Below, one piece after another: positions 37,926 to 40,176 of a stretch of 40,667 nucleotides of DNA (position 1 is its first letter; the number at the start of each line of letters is the position of its first letter). Origin of the DNA: Treponema denticola (GTDB lineage Bacteria > Spirochaetota > Spirochaetia > Treponematales > Breznakiellaceae); assembly GCA_020719845.1 (NCBI GenBank), contig DYPP01000008.1, positions 22,472 to 63,138 of the forward strand. Direction: 5' to 3'. The position numbers were made by a program, and so were the translations under genes. A model generated the notes under the pieces. That model was not told where the DNA came from. It did not search any database and saw nothing but the letters and a program-made list of their open reading frames with translations.

Positions 37926-37948
37926 CGAGTTATCAGACAGCCTCAATT
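37926..37948 (-). repeat. half copy of the GACAGCCTCAATT palindromic repeat
   Basis: These 23 bases are the exact reverse complement of 40001-40023. The core is GACAGCCTCAATT. It lies between the divergent aguA and icd genes, and its last two bases are the first two of the icd -35 box. Confidence 0.9.
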
Positions 37949-39263: not shown

Positions 39264-39953
39264 ATGGATGCAGTACAGTCCCCGGTTCTGGACAAGGTAA
39301 AGAAACTACTCGCCCTGTCAAAATCACCCAGCGAGGCTGAGGCCGCGGCGGCCCTGGCCAAGGCCAATGTCCTGCTGGCCAAGTACGGCCTGAGCATGGC
39401 CGAGGTTCAGCAGGAAGAAGATGTGCAGGAGGCGGTCCTGCTTGAAAAGAAACGTCTGCGGGTATGGGAATCGTTCCTGGTTTCCGTGGTCTGCAAGGCT
39501 ACGTTCACCGAAGCCCTGCATTACCGTACCCAGGCTGAAGGCCGCATCCTGCTTATAGGGCGGGAGGTGAACATCGTAACCGCACAAGAACTGTTCAGCT
39601 ATCTGCACCGCGTGATCCTGATCCTGGGTCGCGCCTACAGTCCCGAGATTGCGCATGTAGACAGTTTCCGCCAGGGAGTCGTGCAGCGCATCGGTGAACG
39701 ACTGGCAGAGCAGTACCGGAAAGGGCAAGGCTCAGGGCCGGAGATGGACGAGGATTCACCAGCGGGAGATGAGACCACCGCCCTGGTCTTGCGGGCCGAT
39801 GCTGCCGCGCACAAAGAAAACCATGCGTTCATCAAAGAAAAATATGGCAGAACCACCAGCAGGAAAACCGGCCGCAGGGTTGAGGCGGATTCATACCACC
39901 GAGGCAGGGCGGTGGGGAATACGGTGAATCTGGACCAGCAGATAGCGGAATGA
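39264..39953 (+). CDS. DUF2786 domain protein
   Basis: A 229-residue protein. The N-terminal 50 residues carry the DUF2786 pattern (VLDKVKKLLALSKSPSEAEAAAALAKANVLLAKYGLS), often seen in phage and mobile-element proteins. The remainder is the companion region with ILLIGREVNIVTAQELFSYL and a basic tail. The family's biochemical role is unknown. ATG 39264 has no ribosome-binding site; TTTAAT (39250-39255) ends eight bases before it, so a leaderless start is possible. The gene lies alone between copies of the palindromic repeat, which hints that it is accessory or recently acquired. Confidence 0.78.
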   Translation: MDAVQSPVLDKVKKLLALSKSPSEAEAAAALAKANVLLAKYGLSMAEVQQEEDVQEAVLLEKKRLRVWESFLVSVVCKATFTEALHYRTQAEGRILLIGREVNIVTAQELFSYLHRVILILGRAYSPEIAHVDSFRQGVVQRIGERLAEQYRKGQGSGPEMDEDSPAGDETTALVLRADAAAHKENHAFIKEKYGRTTSRKTGRRVEADSYHRGRAVGNTVNLDQQIAE

Positions 39954-40000: not shown

Positions 40001-40176
40001 AATTGAGGCTGTCTGATAACTCGGTTAGTTATCAGACAGCCTCAGTATTTTCTCGGATTTTGGCGGATTTAAACGGTTTGTGTTGTTAAAACCAGGTAAA
40101 ACCGCCAAAATCCTGCGAAAATACAACATTAAGGTAGCTGTCCCGCAACTCTCTGAGTTACGGGACAGCCTCAATT
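40001..40176. repeat. 176-bp palindromic element with 13-bp inverted ends
   Basis: The ends are perfect inverted repeats: AATTGAGGCTGTC (40001-40013) and GACAGCCTCAATT (40164-40176). Three nested hairpins fill it. One is a perfect 17-bp stem (40004-40020 with 40028-40044). The second is a long imperfect stem (40045-40066 with 40102-40124, sharing GGATTTTGGCGG in inverted form). The third is a 15-bp stem with one mismatch (40137-40151 with 40155-40169). The whole block has overall dyad symmetry. No encoded protein or target duplication is evident, so it is MITE-like or a repeat doublet. Confidence 0.85.

Follow-up and report, generated by a model that had tools for sequence, protein, structure and literature searches.

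The window analysed here, a stretch of 40,667 nucleotides, contains a short mobile element of 168 bp at positions 40005 to 40172, with four bases, AATT, duplicated on each side. The element is real, mobile and gene-less, and is best read as a MITE with IS1182-type ends that is most likely moved in trans by a DDE transposase of the IS1182 family, its folded ends probably being needed for this; we give this reading a probability of about 0.78. As a MITE it is ordinary, and it is unusual in the order-wide covariation of its hairpins and in the possible dependence of its transposition on structure. It belongs to an order-wide family of minimal spirochaete transposons.

Architecture and fold of the element

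The element lies 3′ of a DUF2786/DUF7168 gene (39264 to 39953), and no open reading frame of at least 100 aa overlaps it, in agreement with the preliminary description, which had called it non-coding. Its sense, from left end to right end, is the minus strand, as set by the asymmetric family consensus together with a covariance model that scores it at 112 bits on the minus strand and at 49 bits on the plus strand. On that strand the right-end hairpin (40005 to 40043) has 17 perfect stem pairs, or 18 if one T-A of the flanking AATT is counted, and carries the loop motif ACTRACCGAGT. The central hairpin (40045 to 40124, minus strand) has a GCA/GA internal loop common to several divergent relatives, and is followed, in window coordinates, by the linker CTACCTTA (40130 to 40137, written in sense on the minus strand), which is conserved in the alignment of relatives and connects the left-end hairpin with the central one. 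The left-end hairpin, reading GCTGTCCCGTAACT...AGTTGCGGGACAGC in sense, occupies about 40136 to 40170 of the minus strand. The two copies of the target-site duplication stand outside, at 40001 to 40004 and at 40173 to 40176.

A 17-bp perfect stem, a long central stem and a third stem had been described earlier, and all three hairpins are indeed present. The proposed check of the RNA fold on both strands gave −91.1 kcal/mol for the plus strand (z −13.4) and −98.6 kcal/mol for the minus strand (z −14.2), far better than shuffles, with none of 200 dinucleotide shuffles folding as well as the element on either strand. The overall dyad symmetry reported for 40001 to 40176 was also picked up by a repeat finder (41-nt arms, 76% complementary); the hairpins and the dyad are thus real, but three separate hairpins describe the structure better than the one large cruciform that had been envisaged. 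Similarly, the perfect inverted repeat of 13 bp claimed for the ends of this stretch (AATTGAGGCTGTC / GACAGCCTCAATT) exists, but its outer AATT is the target duplication, and the outer ends of the element proper are perfect over 9 bp (GAGGCTGTC/GACAGCCTC) and imperfect out to about 18. A remnant of a second copy, half a right-end hairpin with AATT, lies on the plus strand at 37927 to 37948, about 45 bp before the start of the isocitrate dehydrogenase gene.

Copies and target duplications

The genome from which the window comes (252 contigs, 3.3 Mb) holds 15 full copies with 93–100% identity, each 168 bp between the duplications; all of them agree from GAGGCTGTC to GACAGCCTC, where the agreement stops. 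The element is thus short (<500 bp), non-coding and multicopy, with terminal inverted repeats and a target duplication of fixed length, as expected of a MITE, and its 4-bp duplication and IS1182-type terminal repeat are those expected if it were derived from IS1182. The earlier suggestion, a mobile element of the size of a MITE or a repeat doublet, is therefore upheld by the full copies, by the duplications and by a transposase family with matching ends. Further full copies, which the preliminary description had advised searching for, occur in other genera and families. Solo hairpins exist, yet complete three-hairpin copies exist too, and because of these full copies elsewhere a chance assembly of the three hairpins is excluded.

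About 25 further element ends were found in the same genome, nearly all at contig ends and about 49–54 bp into the repeat, as is expected where an assembler stops inside a repeat. A pattern scan added around ten solitary copies of one or other end hairpin, roughly half of them flanked by AATT on both sides; the whole element is thus dispersed, and so are its single end hairpins. The solo hairpins may be products of deletion inside a full element, which would fit their sequences. A solo hairpin of ~39 bp was also seen in the genome G035 (L372:12318-12357), where the outer arm of the left end is joined to the outer arm of the right end and AATC flanks either side; it probably derives from a full element by internal deletion.

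Target duplications of fixed length arise from the staggered cut made by a DDE transposase. The search for them, likewise proposed earlier, showed identical 4-bp flanks at 13 of the 15 full copies, usually AATT and also AATC/AATC (L008) and GATT/GATT (L013). AATT is near-universal at the copies of this genome, whose duplications alone are weak evidence. In G293, a genome of a different genus in the same family, duplications of exactly 4 bp were found at 13 of 19 copies, against 1.13 with the flanks shuffled, and they vary (ATTT, AACT, ATTC, AAGA, GATC, AATC and others). Two further families of the element have 4-bp duplications as well, f5 at 10 of 13 copies (0.9 expected) and f4 at 3 of 3. 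One of the copies in the window's genome (L007) splits a reading frame, and joining its flanks in silico restores a single open frame of 460 aa, whose C-terminal half, after the insertion, is an HD domain and whose half before the insertion has no recognised domain; as evidence for insertion this is supportive, not conclusive.

Family f3 has a 4-bp duplication in only 1 of 37 copies, and its flanks are mutually inverted above chance (1.32 vs 0.56 bases, a value reached in 0 of 2000 shuffles). Its copies (L286-L292, L395-L414, L420-L425) have GGGG...CCCC ends, often with an A-tract on the left and a T-tract on the right. These copies look as if the element may have replaced intrinsic terminator hairpins. 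Elsewhere, at G049:C7:402594-402723 (L264), the ends of one copy carry a direct repeat of 8 bp, AATTTCTA, in place of one of 4 bp.

Terminal repeats, covariation and the proposed mechanism

Since G293, a relative of the window's genome, encodes an IS1182-type transposase, annotated IS1182 elements on plasmids were examined and their ends read from the sequence. These ends include GAGGCTGTGTGAAAACTC, with GGCC duplicated; ISPse1, a member of the IS1182 family with a length of 1653 bp and a 4-bp duplication (PMC3281130), was recovered at exactly 1653 bp with the end GAGGCTGTGTGGAAACTG and with GGCC duplicated. A 4-bp duplication was found in most of the 12 plasmid elements examined, including all 7 with clean ends. 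The outer arm of the right-end hairpin matches the IS1182 terminal inverted repeat at 16 of 18 positions and that of the left-end hairpin at 13 of 18, whereas the best match of shuffled sequences averages about 6.2 and an ISAzo13 end, used as a control, reaches 5, and it is on these matches that the element is assigned to the IS1182-type MITEs. ISAzo13 also makes a 4-bp target duplication; it was considered as a source on that account and discarded, as the ISAzo13 ends read in these genomes (TGCGCAAA, also TGCGCAAAAACAA) do not resemble the element.

The search for a transposase, also suggested earlier, led to the IS1182 family with its matching ends, but the assembly that contains the window had no match to PF01609 or PF13751. 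Nor was a related autonomous element found there, in 252 contigs with collapsed repeats; in type II MITEs the ends are all that is shared with the partner element. The sequence examined around the two PF01609 genes of G293 contained no such ends, and none of the genomes examined showed an IS1182 copy whose ends were hairpins. A scan of all the collected loci and of 636 kb of G035 for an autonomous element ending in the same way gave MITEs, truncated MITEs and a single solo hairpin, and nothing else. The presumed acting enzyme of the window's genome may have been lost, may have collapsed in the assembly or may be too divergent. The inner inverted arm is absent from the seven autonomous IS1182 elements that were measured, so that hairpin ends are special to this MITE family.

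Of the 393 spirochaete genomes sampled, 51 contain the element according to the covariance model, frequently in numerous copies, and all but one of these 51 are in the window's order. The single hairpin also has matches in Spirochaeta sp. UBA9216 and Spirochaetaceae UBA1318, on which the assignment of the window's genome to the spirochaetes rests. A search of plasmids and viral contigs gave no copies. When 15 divergent full-length relatives were aligned, two-sided changes were present in 41 of the 62 pairs of the three-hairpin structure, with 131 two-sided change cells; shuffles gave 42, and sliding the partners gave no more than 33. Several motifs persist, namely ACTRACCGAGT in the loop of the right hairpin, AACTTCAGTT or AACTCAG in the left hairpin and ACCTTA after it, and the central GCA/GA internal loop is exact in 9 of 42 relatives (next best loop, 3 of 42). 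Such identical folds with different letters across a spirochaete order suggest selection on shape in addition to sequence; the arms might also stay paired without selection if hairpins were repaired by template switching. In G293 (L236-L239, L251:636-753, L240) several subfamilies were seen to coexist, with stems quite different in sequence and the same fold.

In the mechanism that we propose, a copy of a gene-less DNA transposon inserted at AATT and duplicated it. Its termini are terminal inverted repeats of the IS1182 type, and a DDE transposase of that family, provided in trans, most likely moved it. Each terminal repeat is followed by an inverted copy of itself, so that both ends form hairpins, with the third hairpin between them. 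The folded ends are probably required by the transposase or by another factor, because across the order both arms of the stems alter and yet remain paired, with the loop motifs retained. The likeliest model would be a structure-dependent transposition such as that reported for IS1272, a member of the same IS family, which picks stem-loops as targets and replaces them without target duplication (PMC5678879). Recognition of this kind would explain why the stems are free to change their letters and not their pairing, and replacement of this kind may explain the f3 copies without duplications.

A bolder version, which we put forward tentatively, would be a system of DDE transposition that identifies its own ends by their hairpin fold and not by sequence. 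Within one spirochaete order the stems would drift freely, with only the pairing and the loop motifs retained, and two such hairpins could transport any intervening DNA, genes included. One copy in G293, of 1.17 kb (L145:784-1955; G293:C16:3283-4454), consists of a left hairpin, a lipoprotein-like gene, an HTH_3 gene and a right hairpin, with ATTT duplicated outside; it is a possible cargo-carrying version, and suggests that DNA lying between a pair of end hairpins can be mobilised by them. The covarying hairpin ends make the idea that IS1182 transposition depends on structure, so far little tested, directly testable with short synthetic substrates, because the natural variants supply stems that differ in sequence and not in shape.

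Alternative explanations and comparison with known systems

A MITE with such ends could also be moved by a different DDE transposase that makes 4-bp duplications, its likeness to IS1182 being convergent. This is unlikely: the lack of a detected IS1182 transposase in the window's own assembly and the weaker match of some subfamilies (the G043 end GGGAATCTC reaches 12 of 18) would fit it, but all nine element ends tested exceed shuffles against the IS1182 ends (P ≤ 0.002, best 16 of 18), the length of the duplication is that of IS1182, and ISAzo13 is excluded by its ends. Slightly less probable again is a structured RNA, in which the sense-strand transcript, as an mRNA stabiliser, terminator or small RNA, would be the selected unit and mobility secondary. 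The covariation of the stems and the T-tracts flanking several f3 copies are in its favour, and G·U wobbles on the sense strand outnumber A·C mismatches by 36 to 15 distinct events (P 0.005; only 18:8 when collapsed by column), an excess favouring the sense (minus) strand that is suggestive. The exact 4-bp duplications nevertheless show a transposon in any case, no Rfam family matches the element above its gathering score, and the copies in G293 have no orientation bias to neighbouring genes (tandem 5 vs 6).

A REP/RAYT-type element moved on single-stranded DNA by a Y1 (HUH) transposase would fit the palindromes, the occurrence of hairpins both solo and paired, the GTAG next to one stem and the two Y1 genes of the window's genome. 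Transposition of that kind is not known to leave a target duplication, so the clear 4-bp duplications contradict it, and these hairpins flank neither Y1 gene; we regard it as very improbable. Least probable of all are attC-like recombination sites of a chromosomal integron, which would account for a structure conserved over sequence and for the lipoprotein-like and helix-turn-helix genes between the two end hairpins of the 1.17-kb copy, but the copies are dispersed and bear 4-bp duplications, none has so far been found in a cassette array, and inspection by eye revealed no attC core sites.

The BOX elements of pneumococcus are modular, hairpin-forming, gene-less repeats and, compared by description only, resemble the present family in this respect, with different modules. 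The IS1182 family (ISPse1, ISPa7, IS1272) shares with the element a terminal repeat such as GAGGCTGTGTGAAAACTC and the 4-bp duplication, several times of a palindromic tetranucleotide, but its members are autonomous, about 1.6–1.8 kb long, with a transposase gene and with ends that lack the inner inverted copy. The reported recognition of stem-loops by IS1272, without target duplication, resembles the f3 copies, in which duplications are likewise missing and the A/T flanks are often inverted to each other; it concerns, however, how an autonomous IS chooses its targets in Staphylococcus and not the hairpin ends of a MITE (PMC5678879). The bacterial MITEs Correia, ERIC, Chunjie and QMITE (reviewed in PMC10969869) are also short, multicopy and gene-less, with inverted ends, target duplications and stable transcript folds; the present family differs in its three separate hairpins, order-wide compensatory change, 4-bp duplication and IS1182-type ends. 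Searches of Rfam and of the literature did not find this order-wide family of minimal transposons, and the literature on treponeme MITEs held nothing relevant. The REP/BIME repeats with RAYT have solo and paired palindromes in one genome as well, but the present family differs in its target duplications and in having no RAYT linkage. A different hairpin, CCCAAGGTAGGCC...GGCCAACCTTGGG, was seen just upstream of a Y1 transposase gene at G000:C144 (L108:67-103), and is perhaps part of an unrelated REP/RAYT pair.
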